Source: Georgenia sp. M64
GTDB taxonomy: Bacteria; Actinomycetota; Actinomycetes; Actinomycetales; Actinomycetaceae
Reading direction: 5' to 3'
Length of the DNA stretch: 64,000 nucleotides
Assembly: GCF_038049925.1 (NCBI RefSeq)
Contig: NZ_CP145809.1
Coordinates: 744,001 to 808,000, forward strand
Positions 22,283-27,424 of this stretch are shown piece after piece. The notes beneath the pieces were generated by a model that did not search any database, was not told where the DNA came from, and saw nothing but the letters and a program-made list of their open reading frames with translations. The first letter of the stretch is position 1. Every line of letters begins with the position of its first letter. The position numbers and the translations under genes were made by a program.

Positions 22283-22999
22283 ATGGCAACGCGCAGCAAG
22301 AACTACCGCAAGGCGGCCGAGAAGATCCACGGCGGCGAGCTCTACTCGCCGCTCCAGGCCGTGCGCCTGGCCAAGGACAGCGCCACCACCAAGTTCGACT
22401 CCACCGTCGAGGTCGTCTTCCGCCTCGGCGTCGACCCCCGCAAGGCGGACCAGATGGTGCGTGGCACCGTCAACCTGCCGCACGGCACCGGCAAGACCGC
22501 TCGGGTCCTGGTCTTCGCCGTCGGTGACCGCGCGCAGCAGGCGCTGGACGCCGGGGCCGACGAGGTCGGTGGCGACGAGCTCATCGAGAAGGTCGCGGCC
22601 GGGTACACCGACTTCGACGCGGCCGTGGCGACCCCCGACCTCATGGGCAAGGTCGGCCGCCTCGGCCGGGTGCTCGGTCCCCGTGGCCTCATGCCGAACC
22701 CGAAGACCGGCACCGTGACGATGGACGTGACCAAGGCCGTGTCCGACATCAAGGGCGGCCGCATCGAGTTCCGTGTCGACAAGCACGCGAACCTGCACTT
22801 CATCATCGGCAAGGCCAGCTTCGACGAGAAGTTGCTCGTGGAGAACTACGCCGCCGCGCAGGAGGAGATCCTGCGCCTCAAGCCGGCCAGCTCCAAGGGT
22901 CGCTACATCACCAAGGCGACGCTGACCACCACGATGGGCCCGGGCATCCCGCTCGACGCCACCAAGACGCGCAACCTCACCTCCGAGGACGCGTCCTGA
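22283..22999 (+). CDS. rplA: 50S ribosomal protein L1
   Basis: The 238-residue protein forms the L1 stalk ([15 protein letters not shown] at the start, [13 protein letters not shown] in the middle). AAGGAGAG lies upstream of ATG 22283, which rules out the longer frame from 22073. In many bacteria L1 also represses its own rplKA message. A strong terminator follows. Confidence 0.97.
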
Positions 23000-23010
23000 C
23001 GCACGCATGA

Positions 23011-23048
23011 GACGGCGGCCCGGCACCTGGTGGTGCCGGGCCGCCGTC
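23011..23048 (+). terminator. Terminator after rplKA
   Basis: A perfect 17-bp stem (arms 23011-23027 and 23032-23048) with loop TGGT, followed by GTTGGTGG, begins 11 bp after the rplA stop. It separates rplKA from the accessory insertion. Confidence 0.8.
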
Positions 23049-23110
23049 GTTGGTGGGGCCGTCCCGAGCGTCGTCTGTCCGAACCGTCCCGGCCGTCGTG
23101 TGTCCGAGCG

Positions 23111-23206
23111 GCCGTCGGGGCGGTCACTCAGTGGCGGTGCGTCGAGCGAGGACCTCCGGCCGTCGGGGCGGTCACTCAGCGGCGGCGCGCCGAGCGAGGA
23201 CCTCCC
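23111..23206. repeat. 48-bp tandem repeat, two copies
   Basis: Copies at 23111-23158 and 23159-23206 both begin GCCGTCGGGGCGGTCACTCA and end in GAGCGAGGACCTCC. They differ at only a few positions, mostly T/C transitions. No coding role is apparent. Confidence 0.8.
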
Positions 23207-23412
23207 GCCCCACTCGCTCACCCCGCTCTCTCCGATGTCGGCCCACCTTCCGCTCCTCGAACGGCGGATGCCTCCACCGGGCCTGGCTCGGCGGCTCACG
23301 CGCACGGCTCGCCGCTCGGCCGGCGCCTCCACAACGCGTCGCTCGGCGGGCCGCTCCCCAGCCAGTGGCTCGGCGGGTGCCTCGGGCCAGTGCGACGGGA
23401 GAACGTGCCGAC

Positions 23413-24426
23413 ATGGAGCATCCGCCCGGTCCGCCCACCCCGCCGCCGGTGATACTCACCCGTGACTACGGCCGCGACGCGGTGCGGGCGGCACGCCGAC
23501 GGGGCAGGCTGACGCAGGTCCGTCGTGGCGCGTACGTCGTCCGGCCCGACGGGAGCCCGCCCTGGGTGCAGCGCGAGCACATGGCGCTCGCCGCCTGCGT
23601 CGCTGCGGCGGCTGAGCTGCGGTGCGAGTACGCGTTCAGCCACGAGACGGCGGCACTCATCCACGGCTGCTGGCTCTCCGGGATGGACGGCGACACGCAC
23701 ATCACGCAGCGCACCCGGCCCAGCTGCGGCGGAGGCCTCCGGCGCCATCAGGGCCGGCTCCCGGCGGGCGACGTCACCGTCGTGAACGGCCTGCCCGTGA
23801 CCACACTCGGACGCACCGTGGAGGACTGTGCCAGGACGATGCCGCCGCGTCGGGCGCTGGCCGTCGCAGACAGTGCGCTACGGATACTGGCGCGGCCGGA
23901 CCGTCGTGACCGCGCCGGGTCTACCGCGCGTCTGGAGGCCGCCCGCGCGGAACTGCTCGAGCGGCTCGACCGCCGCGGCGGGGACCGCGGCGTCGTCCGT
24001 GCCCGCGCGGTCATCTGCTGGGCGGATGGGTTCGCCGAGTCGGCCGGTGAGTCGGAGATGCGTTGGCTCGCGGTCGCGAACGGGCTTCCTCGTCCGACCA
24101 GCCAGATGCCGGTGCTGACCGAGAAGGGGGAGTACTTCACCGACCTTGGGTGGCGGCTGGCCGCGACCGGCACCGACGAGCGCTGGACGGTGGCCATGGA
24201 GTACGACGGTGCCTGCAAGTATCAGGCCGGACCGGAGAGCCTCTACGCCGAGAAGGTCCGTGAGGATGCCATCCGGGCGGTCGTGCACCGGTTCCAGCGG
24301 TTCGTCGCCGCCGACCTCCGCTCGCCCGACCGCGCTTTCGCGCGCATGGTGGGTGCGTTCCCTTCGGGCGTGCGGCGCGCTGTCCGCCCGGTGCGGGGAC
24401 TGCGGAGCGTCCCGGGAGCCGACTGA
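23413..24426 (+). CDS. AbiEi-type winged-helix protein with a nuclease-like C-terminal domain
   Basis: The 337-residue protein begins with an AbiEi-like region: GRLTQVRRGAYVVRP, then SHETAALIHGCWL and VNGLPVTTLGRTVEDCAR. The C-terminal 120 residues resemble DUF559-type or Vsr-type PD-(D/E)XK nucleases: Glu215 in SEMRW, Asp244 in YFTDLGW, Glu263 and Asp265 in MEYDG, Lys269. Such proteins are frequent single genes in Actinobacteria with no proven function. A role in DNA processing or phage defence is inference. No cognate AbiEii toxin is beside it. ATG 23413 is chosen; upstream open frame is repetitive DNA. Confidence 0.7.
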   Translation: MEHPPGPPTPPPVILTRDYGRDAVRAARRRGRLTQVRRGAYVVRPDGSPPWVQREHMALAACVAAAAELRCEYAFSHETAALIHGCWLSGMDGDTHITQRTRPSCGGGLRRHQGRLPAGDVTVVNGLPVTTLGRTVEDCARTMPPRRALAVADSALRILARPDRRDRAGSTARLEAARAELLERLDRRGGDRGVVRARAVICWADGFAESAGESEMRWLAVANGLPRPTSQMPVLTEKGEYFTDLGWRLAATGTDERWTVAMEYDGACKYQAGPESLYAEKVREDAIRAVVHRFQRFVAADLRSPDRAFARMVGAFPSGVRRAVRPVRGLRSVPGAD

Positions 24427-24829
24427 AGCATGCGTGCGTCGCCCCGTCCGACCGGCAGGGTTGCGCTCCGCCGTCGAGACCCTGCGGCTCAGTGCGGCCC
24501 GCAAGGTTCGAAGCGCCGTGCTCAGACGGTATGAGGGTCGGCTTGGGCCTGGTTGGTCTGGTCGGGGATTCCGCTGCTGGTGATCGATGGTGGCGGTCTC
24601 CGGCGGGGAGTCAAGGCACTTCGTCCCTGCGGGCGGCCTGCGGCCGGTCTTGACTCCCCGCCGGAGACCGCGCGTTCGCCTGGATCAGGGGAATCCCCTC
24701 GACGACTGCACGGAACTCCCCTCTACCGGGGGTTGTAGTGCAGGAAACCTCCACGGCGCATAGTCGTGAGTTACCACCGGTGGCCATCCGGGACCACCGG
24801 TGGACGTCACAGTCGTCGGGAGGTTCCCT
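24427..24829. other. Non-coding region with palindrome and structured leader of the IS110-type element
   Basis: No gene is supported here. The region contains a 135-bp imperfect palindrome (24564-24698) and directly after it two further stem-loops (24706-24743 and 24741-24830) that run into the transposase start codon. Confidence 0.7.
24564..24698. repeat. 135-bp imperfect palindrome with a perfect 23-bp core stem
   Basis: The arms 24593-24615 and 24649-24671 are perfect inverted repeats of 23 bp around a 33-nt loop that itself contains GGCCTGCGGCC. Outside the core the symmetry resumes with GGGGATTCC at 24564-24572 and GGAATCCCC at 24690-24698. It could be a REP-like sequence and IS target, part of the element, or a bidirectional terminator after the nuclease-like gene. 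Confidence 0.75.
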
Positions 24830-24830
24830 G
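24706..24830 (+). ncRNA. Candidate guide (bridge/seek) RNA region of the IS110-type element
   Basis: Two stem-loops precede the transposase. The first pairs CTGCAC (24706-24711) with GTGCAG (24738-24743), with an inner stem AAC(t)CCCC/GGGGGTT. The second pairs CAGGAAACCTCC (24741-24752) with GGAGGTTCCCTG (24819-24830; 11 of 12 pairs), encloses an internal loop (ACGGCGCATAGTC / AGTCGTC), then GTGA/TCAC and two CCACCGGTGG palindromes around a 10-nt loop. Stem-loops with internal loops upstream of the recombinase are the known layout of IS110-group bridge RNAs. The second stem also covers the Shine-Dalgarno GGGAGGT. The structure was read by eye and the RNA identity is inference. Confidence 0.45.
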
Positions 24831-25929
24831 TGTTCACCAACACTATCCCCGCCGCTCGTGAGCGGTGGGTCGTGGGCCTGGACGTCCACGCCCGTTCGAT
24901 CAGCGCGTCCGCGCTGGACCTGCTCACCGGGGAGCTGATCAACGCCCGCCTGGCCGCCGACCCCGCCACGGCGTTGAGGTTCGTCACCGGCCTCGGCGCA
25001 GACTCGGCGGTGGCCTACGAGGCCGGCCCGACCGGGTTCGGCCTGGCCCGGGCCCTGGACCAGGCCGCGATCCGGTGCGTGGTCGCGGCGCCGTCGAAGA
25101 TCGCCCGCGCCCCGGGTGATCGGGTCAAGACCGACAAGCGTGACGCGACCCTGCTCGCCCGTCGCCTCGCGGCCGGGGACCTGACCGCGGTGCGAGTGCC
25201 GTCCCCGACCGAGGAAGCCGCCCGCGACCTGACCCGTGCCCATGAGGACGCTCGCGCGGACCTGATGAGCGCCCGGCACCGGGCGTCCAAGCTGCTCCTG
25301 CGCCACGGCATCGTCTACTCCGGGGGAGCACCTGGAGCCGGGACCATCACGCCTGGCTGGCCCGCACCCACCTCGACCAGCCCCCCGCCCAAGACGCCTT
25401 CGAGGACGCCTACCAACAAGTCCTGCTGCTCGAGGTCCGCAAGAGGAACCTCGCCGCCAAGATCACCCACCTGGCCACCAACAGCGAGTTCACCGACGTC
25501 GTCCACGCCCTGGGCTGCCTGCGCGGCATCTCCGTGCTCACCGCGATGTTCCTGGCCGTAGAGATCGGTGACTGGGACCGTTTCACCGGCGCCTCGATCG
25601 GGGCCTACCTCGGCCTGACCCCCACCGAGCACTCCTCCGGCAGCTCACGACGCCTCGGGCCGATCACCAAGGCCGGCAACCCCCACATCCGTCTCCTGCT
25701 CGCCGAGGCCGCCTGGCACCACCGTCCCGGCTACCGCGTCGGCACCACCCTGCAAGCACGGTTCGACGCCGCCACCCCCGCCCAGGCCGCCCGCGGTCAC
25801 GAGGGCAACCTGCGCCTGCACCGCCGCTGGGTCCACTTCACCACCCAGCACAAGCGCACCACGATCGCCAACACCGCGATCGCCCGAGAACTCGCCGGAT
25901 GGTGCTGGTCCCTGGCCACCACCCGGTGA
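24830..25929 (+). pseudogene. IS110-family transposase, interrupted by one frameshift
   Basis: The GTG at 24830 follows GGGAGGT. The N-terminal RuvC-like DEDD domain is intact: Asp18 in GLDVHA, Glu64 in AYEAGP, Asp102 and Asp105 in KTDKRDA. Near 25322-25326 (a run of five G) the frame changes. The rest, GSTWSRDHHAWLARTHLDQ to the TGA at 25927-25929, reads cleanly in the next frame and contains the C-terminal serine domain (HSSGSSRRLGPITKAGNPHI). Restoring one base gives about 366 residues, normal for the family. The two parts are otherwise undamaged, so the change is recent or a sequencing error. Confidence 0.85.
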
Positions 25930-26281
25930 ACAAATCCTGGGCCCCGACAACCCCCCGGCCGGGAGCAGCGTGACGGGGACGACCCACGACTGCTCTGTGA
26001 GCACCCGACCCCGACCAGGACGGACACGCCCGACCTCAGACAGTGCCGACCGTCCCCCGCCGAACACCACCGTCATGCGGCAACCAACCCGCGCATATCA
26101 GACTCGACACCCGCGTCGAACAGACACGCACCCAGCCCGGGAACCCCAGGGACCAGGAACAAGAGGAAGACCGCCGACCCGAGCACCCAGCCCGGGCCGA
26201 CGGCCATCCCCTGCCCTCTTGACAAACCGACCTACATATCAGAGCAGGCGACGGCGACGGCGCCTCCATCGTGGGCACCCG

Positions 26282-26338
26282 GTGAGGTCGAACTGAACGG
26301 GTGAGGTCGTACCGGACGGGTTGAGGTCGGCTCGTACG
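26282..26338 (+). repeat. Three contiguous 19-bp repeats (triad A)
   Basis: The units are GTGAGGTCGAACTGAACGG (26282-26300), GTGAGGTCGTACCGGACGG (26301-26319) and GTTGAGGTCGGCTCGTACG (26320-26338), with an exact 19-bp period and no spacer. Confidence 0.85.
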
Positions 26339-26437
26339 CTGTGCTGGCTCAGCCCGGTTGGTGCTGAGTGGGCGCGGGGCCTCGAACTCGTTGCAGGGAG
26401 AACTCAGGGTCGGGCCGCCCACCGTCGCTGGTGGCCG

Positions 26438-26494
26438 GTGAGGTCGTGGCAGACGGGTGAGGTCGTAGCGAACGGGTTGAGGTCGGCTCGTACG
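26438..26494 (+). repeat. Three contiguous 19-bp repeats (triad B)
   Basis: The units are GTGAGGTCGTGGCAGACGG (26438-26456), GTGAGGTCGTAGCGAACGG (26457-26475) and GTTGAGGTCGGCTCGTACG (26476-26494). The third unit is identical to the third of triad A. Partial similarity continues downstream (CCCGGTTGGTGC), so a block of about 156 bp was probably duplicated. Confidence 0.85.
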
Positions 26495-26692
26495 TGGTGC
26501 TGACTCGGCCCGGTTGGTGCGGACTGAGCGCTGAGCCCCGCACTCGGCCGGGGGAGTGTGGCAGCGAACCTGACGATCGGGCTGATGGCTCCGGACTCGG
26601 CGGGGGAGCGCGCCAGGTACCCGCCGACCGCGCACGACAGCCGCCGGGCGACGGCATGCGACGCGGCTCACCCCCGCCGGGAAGGCACCGAG

Positions 26693-26722
26693 TTGGAGCA
26701 CGGTGCCGCGACGGGGTAGTGT
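26693..26722 (+). promoter_or_regulatory. Probable rplJL promoter
   Basis: TTGGAG at 26693-26698 and TAGTGT at 26717-26722 with an 18-bp spacer fit a housekeeping sigma promoter. It is placed just upstream of the L10 leader, as expected after the rplKA terminator and the insertion separated the two operons. Confidence 0.6.
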
Positions 26723-26727
26723 GCTCC

Positions 26728-26860
26728 TTGCCAAAGACCGCCGGTCGCCCGTCCGCCAGGACGGGGCCAAGTCCGCGAACGCGGAGCCAGCGCAGGCGTG
26801 CCAAGAGCGAGAGCATCTGATGCCCGAGCCCCGTGCCGTCTGCACGGGGCTTCTTTCGTT
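26728..26860 (+). ncRNA. Ribosomal protein L10 leader (autoregulatory mRNA element)
   Basis: The transcribed leader upstream of rplJ carries GC-rich pairings and the CAGCGCAGGCGTGCCAAGAG-type segment common to actinobacterial rplJ leaders, and ends in a stem-loop with a T-rich tail. In other bacteria the L10-L7/L12 complex binds this leader to repress its own synthesis. The exact fold was not computed. Confidence 0.5.
26828..26856 (+). terminator. Attenuator-like terminator in the rplJ leader
   Basis: GCCCCGTGC (26828-26836) pairs perfectly with GCACGGGGC (26842-26850) around a 5-nt loop, followed by TTCTTT. It lies 47 bp before rplJ, so it is more likely an attenuator than an operon end. 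Confidence 0.65.
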
Positions 26861-26902
26861 CTCGGACCCTCCCGGCCGCGGTTCACTATCGGAAGGAGGG
26901 CC

Positions 26903-27424
26903 ATGGCGAGGCCTGACAAGGCGGCAGCGGTCGCCGAGCTCACGGAGCAGCTCCGTGGGTCGAGCGCCGTACTGCTGACCGAGTACCGCGGGCTCAGCGT
27001 CGCCCAGCTCAAGCAGCTGCGCCGCTCGCTCAGCGGGCACGCAACCTACGCCGTGGTGAAGAACACGCTGACGGCCATCGCGGCGAAGGAGGCCGGCCTC
27101 GACTCCCTCGAGGACGAGCTGTCCGGCCCGACGGCAGCCGCCTTCGTGACCGGTGAGCCGGTCGAGGCGGCCAAGTCGATGCGCGACTTCGCCAAGGCGA
27201 ACCCCCAGCTGGTGATCAAGGGTGGTGTCCTGGAGGGTCGCAAGCTCTCCGCCGCGGACGTCACCAAGCTCGCCGACCTGGAGTCCCGCGACGTGCTGCT
27301 GGGCAAGGCGGCCGGAGCTTTCAAGGCTGCGCTCTTCGGTGCTGCCTACCTCTTCACCGCGCCGGCCACCCAGGCCGTCCGCACCATCGAGGCCCTGCGC
27401 GAGAAGCAGGCCGCCGAGGCCTGA
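26903..27424 (+). CDS. rplJ: 50S ribosomal protein L10
   Basis: The 173-residue protein ([17 protein letters not shown] ...) anchors the L7/L12 stalk to the ribosome. The [16 protein letters not shown] and VKNTL segments are typical. GGAAGGAGGG lies just before ATG 26903, which rules out the longer frame. rplL follows after 63 bp. Confidence 0.97.

Follow-up and report, generated by a model that had tools for sequence, protein, structure and literature searches.

A conserved leader predicted to cover the transposase ribosome-binding site, and a separate candidate 3′ guide RNA, in an IS1111-type element of Georgenia

Does the structured leader in front of the transposase gene of an IS110-family element in Georgenia sp. 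M64 direct the element to its target, or does it control the synthesis of the transposase? IS110-family elements work as programmable RNA-guided DNA-insertion systems, and the initial annotation of the window (i.e. the whole stretch of DNA analysed, 64,000 nucleotides) took this leader for the guide RNA, adding that its fold might also limit transposase translation. Based on our comparison of relatives we favour a separation of the two tasks: the second of the two annotated stems would close a conserved 5′ leader on the transposase mRNA and thereby block the ribosome-binding site, and the guide would be a separate RNA from the 3′ region, a reading to which we assign a probability of about 0.8.

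The element resides in a genome of 4.18 Mb assembled as a single contig, and consists of the following main parts.

24524 to 26240, + strand: IS element, 1717 bp, ends set by alignment with copy 2, the G001 copy, L025 and multi-copy relatives
24531 to 24541, + strand: left subterminal inverted repeat ATGAGGGTCGG, pairing with the right repeat at 9 of 11 positions
24592 to 24670, + strand: long hairpin of about 25 pairs at the left end, predicted
24830 to 25929, + strand: DEDD transposase gene, a pseudogene whose frame is broken near 25.3 kb
26227 to 26237, + strand: right subterminal inverted repeat CCGACCTACAT

Copy 2 is a second copy in the same genome (G000) with 82% identity to the window copy, and L025 is a copy in Promicromonospora umidemergens. 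G001 is a congener that contains a diverged homologous locus with both flanks adjacent and without the element. The multi-copy relatives (eight copies in G036, five in G156 and five in Leucobacter) have sharp ends and readable flanking targets. The termini are a left extension of 7 bp, AGACGGT, and a right extension of 3 bp, ATC, and an AG core common to element and target is found at 24524-24525 and 26241-26242; the left extension is 7 bp long in all 22 elements. Identity of the subterminal repeats is 9/11 in the window, 10/11 in copy 2 and 8/11 in L025, and only 6 of 22 elements reach at least 9/11 (window, L006, L109, L065, L088 and L077), the poorest having 3/11.

Several features of the surroundings were seen in passing. 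Within 22283-27424 the element and an ORF lacking a Pfam match (23413-24426) lie between the genes for ribosomal proteins L1 and L10. To the right of the element, 26263-26546 holds a direct repeat of two copies (128 nt, 80% alike, spacing 156), and sequence related to it is present at the matching locus of G001. L024, the copy of the element in G001, differs very little from copy 2 in sequence; about 60 nt are missing from its left end, and other DNA interrupts it at two places downstream of the transposase. The arms of the hairpin at 24592-24670 are still paired in copy 2 despite many changes and are less perfect in L025; in Arthrobacter relatives, read by eye, complementary stretches precede the leader as well.

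An intact homologue of the transposase is encoded by copy 2 (G000:C1:3663537-3664634, 366 residues). The protein contains the domains DEDD_Tnp_IS110 and Transposase_20, and its two pieces in the window match the NCBIfam IS110 model below the cut-off of that model. The sequence GLTPTEHSSG in P0002 and P0003 corresponds to the IS1111-group motif GL-P----S(t)G, a looser IS110 pattern fitting as well.

Directly upstream of this gene the following leader features can be distinguished.

24706 to 24738, + strand: first stem-loop, predicted, not conserved
24741 to 24832, + strand: conserved leader RNA (match to covariance model R1 at 24742-24832, 55.5 bits, the window being one of the 17 training sequences)
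24741 to 24752, + strand: left arm of helix 1, the stem over the ribosome-binding site
24755 to 24758, + strand: left strand of helix 2, partner 24814-24817
24766 to 24769, + strand: left strand of helix 3, GTGA, within the conserved motif TCGTGAGTTACC, partner TCAC at 24807-24810
24774 to 24803, + strand: inner variable hairpin with two CCACCGGTGG palindromes (24774, 24794)
24819 to 24830, + strand: right arm of helix 1, overlapping the Shine-Dalgarno sequence (SD, 24818-24823) and reaching into the GTG start codon by one base

The arms of the second stem, 24741-24752 (CAGGAAACCTCC) and 24819-24830 (GGAGGTTCCCTG), are complementary at 11 of 12 positions, as annotated, with an A-C mismatch, and the two palindromes annotated inside it are present. 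The interval 24680-24840, to which the initial annotation had looked for the fold, is indeed far more stable than its shuffles (-82.7 kcal/mol versus a mean of -61.4; z -5.24; 0/200 as stable), but the second stem is absent from the minimum-energy fold of exactly this interval, in which a different strand, farther upstream, is the partner of the SD. Whether the stem is predicted depends on where the RNA starts. With starts at 24526, 24540, 24706, 24720 or 24741 it forms with 10-11 of 12 pairs at a mean probability of 0.71-0.90, the first two of these starts lying near the left end of the element and representing the full-length leader; it is absent (probability 0.00-0.05) when the RNA begins at 24592, 24680 or 24690, and with a start at 24560 the result depends on the 3′ end chosen. 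The right arm is mostly paired whatever the start (0.68-0.90), so the ribosome-binding site is predicted to be covered either way. As to the alternative, when the RNA starts within 24592-24690, the stretch 24680-24707 is predicted to pair with 24810-24830 and to supply the partner of the SD instead of 24741-24752, which gives two alternative ways to cover one site. Taken on its own the second stem of the window is not exceptional, as equally good pairing is seen with 6 of 200 shuffles of the upstream region, and the strong evidence for it is comparative, drawn from the sequences of relatives.

Upstream of the start codon the relatives share one architecture, namely helix 1 over the SD, helix 2, a short helix 3 and a variable inner hairpin. 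When the 22 pairs are followed through 17 leaders, 88.4% of the cells are paired versus 72.1% after shuffling, and 65 cells have changed on both sides versus a shuffled mean of 19.4. The covariation score is 0.476 versus 0.165 with shuffled 3′ letters (0/500), with 0.056-0.144 for controls in which the partner was slid, so that covariation, for which the initial annotation had suggested looking, is clearly present; RNAalifold returns 17 pairs, 13 of them with changes on both sides. Of the two stem-loops originally described upstream of the gene, the second is thus kept by compensatory changes. The first (24706-24738) remains a predicted structure without conservation: copy 2 and L025 have a different sequence here, and the G001 copy lacks the stretch.

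A second, alignment-free line of evidence comes from the SD region: in 19 of 32 loci its upstream pairing surpasses that of every one of 200 shuffles (mean z -3.98), in a set that includes near-identical relatives and the mis-assigned L030, whose partner lies 133 nt away. Among more distant loci this holds for 14 of 29 (mean z -2.97), where L054, L102, L103 and perhaps others have poor start codons and were kept in the counts. Given that the relatives do not constitute independent samples, these counts are not to be read as probabilities. For 11 other genes of the window, serving as control, the mean z is -0.16, and in 0/11 are as few as 5 of 100 shuffles or fewer as good. Helix 1 is formed in all 32 loci when the leader is folded by itself; with 180 nt of upstream sequence the number is 27 of 32, helix 1 then being missing from the minimum-energy fold of the window, L030, L035, L108 and L110.

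Helix 1 itself shows up to four standard pair types per position with changes on both sides in the 17 leaders, and its paired cells are exclusively Watson-Crick, without a single G-U pair in 170 cells. This is unusual for an RNA helix and would also be compatible with a constraint on the DNA. Hence the palindrome might be maintained for recognition by the transposase or as part of the end, with the hiding of the SD as a by-product. Helix 2, however, does contain G-U pairs, and the distance between core and start codon varies from 96 to 321 nt among elements, yet helix 1 stays tied to the SD and the start codon. Moreover, mini-elements of ISEc11 move with 50 bp of the left end, as described in the excerpted text of PMC11187229. 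Altogether, we regard a palindrome constrained as DNA as very unlikely.

How far does the leader extend beyond close relatives? R1, a covariance model of the leader trained on 17 sequences including the window, locates the leader where the transposase begins in 49 of 68 sources if E≤1 is allowed and in 40 of 68 at E≤0.01, the 68 comprising the 17 training sequences and some near-copies of them; 19 of the 68 give no match. In 46 of the 49 the end of the match falls between -7 and +26 nt relative to the projected first transposase residue, the placement being scripted for all but the window, L024 and L107. Beyond Actinomycetota only L065 (Caldiserica) and L054 (Spirochaetaceae) reach E≤0.01 in this search, and weaker matches (E 0.017 to 0.9) occur at loci from Alicyclobacillus, Elusimicrobia, Shewanella and Porticoccus. 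Four plasmid relatives, chosen among the 30 listed of 2541, have a stem ending at the start codon, and a smaller search without filtering gives R1 matches for three of them, from Pseudomonadota, at E 2e-4 to 2e-3.

In the home genome R1 recognizes the two copies of the element only, and a search of 347 genomes of the order, the home genome among them, yields 41 places in 18 genomes. The transposase match begins about where the R1 match ends in 25 of the 30 order-level loci checked (own copies included); three of the 30 lie at contig edges, and in two (L146 and L156) a transposase beside the R1 match was not detected. L156 and L146 are possible remnants or non-autonomous elements. In L027 a second leader-like match (2296-2381) is located just upstream of the proper one, perhaps a tandem copy or an assembly artefact beside N. 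In the leader region of the window no Rfam family reaches its gathering score, and at E≤5 only sub-threshold microRNA families appear, three of the four on the long hairpin.

If the leader closes over the start site, where is the target chosen? For 26 elements, i.e. the window and 25 relatives with usable ends, the right target was compared with the non-coding regions of the same element; this excludes 19 of 45 elements in which an end could not be located or was cut off by the end of the contig. For L048, L058 and L065, each with several matches to choose from, the ends were set manually, in the case of L058 after a first selection had pointed elsewhere, and in elements without an identified left end the last 150 nt served as 5′ region. 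Against the own 3′ region the match extends over a mean of 5.69 contiguous bases from the core versus 3.38 for permuted targets, and 0 of 2000 permutations are as good, their maximum being 4.23. Against the own 5′ region it is 3.31 versus 3.47, with 1727 of 2000 permutations as good. A match of at least 4 nt in the 3′ region is found in 22 of the 26 (exceptions: L108, L109, L110 and L050), and the match of the window element is 7 nt long. The segments of its 3′ region are listed here.

25990 to 25996, + strand: right target guide CTGCTCT, reverse complement of AGAGCAG (AG core plus 26243-26247)
26031 to 26039, + strand: candidate left target guide CGACCTCAG, sharing CTCAG with the left target, no permutation test
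26069 to 26074, + strand: candidate right donor guide ACCGTC, reverse complement of GACGGT of the left end
26091 to 26101, + strand: candidate left donor guide GCGCATATCAG, resembling the right end CTACATATC plus AG

The order is thus a complement of the right target, a segment resembling the left target next to the core, a complement of the left end and a segment similar to the right end, the last three being read by eye; the segments resembling the element's own ends therefore also lie in the 3′ region. From these matches, target choice appears to fall not to the leader but to another RNA, which the element encodes in its 3′ non-coding region.

The initial annotation had identified the 5′ structure with the bridge/seek RNA of the element. 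This would agree with IS621-like members of the IS110 group, where the guide (bridge RNA) lies upstream of the gene according to the excerpted text of PMC11208160, and with a left end as long as about 305 nt. The loop complementarity to junction or target that was expected of the leader is nevertheless not above permutation for the right target, the one tested, in contrast to the clear signal in the 3′ region. The end-like segments are located there as well, with the guide order published for IS1111, and as a weaker point the G001 copy lacks about 60 nt of its 5′ region, although it is itself interrupted. We thus consider a guide function of the 5′ structure highly improbable; for the choice of the right target a guide RNA in the 5′ region is ruled out by the permutation test.

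Judged by its sequence the element has an IS1111-type layout with the guide downstream of the transposase. According to the available portion of PMC11187229, from which the extension rule for this group is taken, IS1111-family elements, which use a seekRNA (e.g. ISEc11), have 7/3-bp extensions and a downstream guide in which the complement of the top strand comes first. The window element shares the extensions, the order of the guide halves, the downstream guide and a candidate junction promoter. It differs in its imperfect subterminal repeats, poor in many relatives, from repeats that are usually 11-13 bp long and perfect or near-perfect (PMC11187229, in part), in a left end of about 305 nt with an extra hairpin, and in its structured leader, which the same portion of that paper does not mention. 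It also resembles the 26 of more than 350 ISfinder entries that have long non-coding regions on both sides (same source, in part). With IS621 it has in common the DEDD transposase family (PDB 8wt6, E 5e-8) and the use of RNA guides, but, as far as PMC11208160 could be drawn on, the guide lies downstream instead of upstream and the order of the guide halves differs.

Thus, we propose that the 5′ leader is a device for translational control. In the cell its fold would keep ribosomes off the start site, so that the transposase would be made rarely and jumping would be kept rare. Such a leader would lower the translation of every transposase mRNA, whether it originates from a promoter at the circle junction or from read-through of a neighbouring gene. 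The junction promoter may be assembled at the circle junction from TTGACA of the right end and the left end.

26219 to 26224, + strand: TTGACA, candidate -35 element of the circle-junction promoter, right end

CATAAT is found 17-18 nt from TTGACA in L065, L077 and L088, and a weaker GACGGT takes its place at the junction of the window element. A scan of 24500-26350 for sigma-70-type promoters, the type it covers, returned no promoter-like site in either direction.

How might a closed leader be opened or held? A general anti-sequestor strand competing for the left arm did not emerge in 25 loci (mean z -0.78, none beating all 200 shuffles), four of which (L033, L034, L047 and L110) have at most 10 shuffles as good. 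Alternatively, an RNA acting in trans, either the guide RNA of the element itself or an antisense transcript such as Asr9, may pair with the leader and open the fold, as has been proposed and partly tested for ISPpu9 (PMC8450116, excerpted text). Duplexes between leader and own guide are, however, no better than swapped ones (19 elements; 974 of 1000 swaps as low or lower), and the sigma-70-type scan provides no antisense site either, which makes opening by a trans-acting RNA unlikely to our mind.

Sequence conservation of the inner motif (CGTGGGTTRCC with GCCACAT) exceeds what the hiding of an SD would need, and this suggests a bound factor, possibly the transposase itself. Helix 3 of the relatives' leaders sits inside a conserved motif; a search that favours pairing located it in 39 of 65 leaders, with no call for the other 26, and in 29 of the 39 it alternates between GTGG/CCAC, GCGG/CCGC, GTAG/CTAC and GTGA/TCAC. 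Both observations would suit an autogenous control, in which the transposase, alone or with the guide RNA, binds the inner motif and stabilizes the closed state. On the other hand, the 3′ guide regions of 16 sources contain no R1-like structure beyond weak matches, so there is no sign of guide mimicry, and the leader as a mimic of the guide was rejected for want of a good R1 match there. We view autogenous control as rather unlikely. A match of 25.6 bits in L028 (4924-4988) is outside the element and palindromic. The broadest version, which we put forward as a tentative possibility from sequence comparison, would see in the leader an undescribed RNA family across IS1111-type elements of Actinomycetota, Pseudomonadota, Bacillota, Spirochaetota and Caldiserica, a translational switch in which the transposase reads the inner motif and by which an element might count its own transposase and stay nearly silent.

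Translation of a transposase mRNA is also controlled at the ribosome-binding site in IS10, which belongs to another transposase family and relies on Hfq. The closest precedent for the hidden ribosome-binding site is ISPpu9 of Pseudomonas putida (IS110/IS492 family), where mutations weakening the fold of the 5′UTR raised a translational fusion 26-fold (PMC8450116, excerpted text). Compared by description, the two elements share a long 5′UTR folding over the transposase ribosome-binding site and an AG repeat at the ends, and the sense RNA Ssr9 of ISPpu9 is encoded downstream of tnp, like the guide in the window, so that Ssr9 may well be the guide RNA of ISPpu9. They differ in the abundant antisense RNA Asr9 described in that excerpt: a leader of the ISPpu9 kind would have an antisense promoter overlapping the ribosome-binding site, and our sigma-70-type scan shows no antisense promoter in the window element. 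Among the matches listed, which are 30 of 2541 records in one search and 60 of at least 5000 in another, ISPpu9 does not appear. Hiding of the ribosome-binding site by a transposase leader (ISPpu9) and guides downstream of tnp (IS1111) are thus already known, and no description of a conserved leader structure common to the group was found in the open-access full text of PMC.

The comparison, i.e. compensatory change and recurrence in distant IS110-family elements, supports the part of the initial annotation according to which the fold might limit transposase translation. Among the open-access PMC papers found, the control of transposase synthesis is worked out for one case, ISPpu9, and a conserved leader that a model can recognize would make such control testable across the group. 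Taken together, the two non-coding ends can be told apart, with control at the 5′ end and the guide at the 3′ end as the probable arrangement, and the locus serves as a warning that a structured left end need not be a guide RNA.
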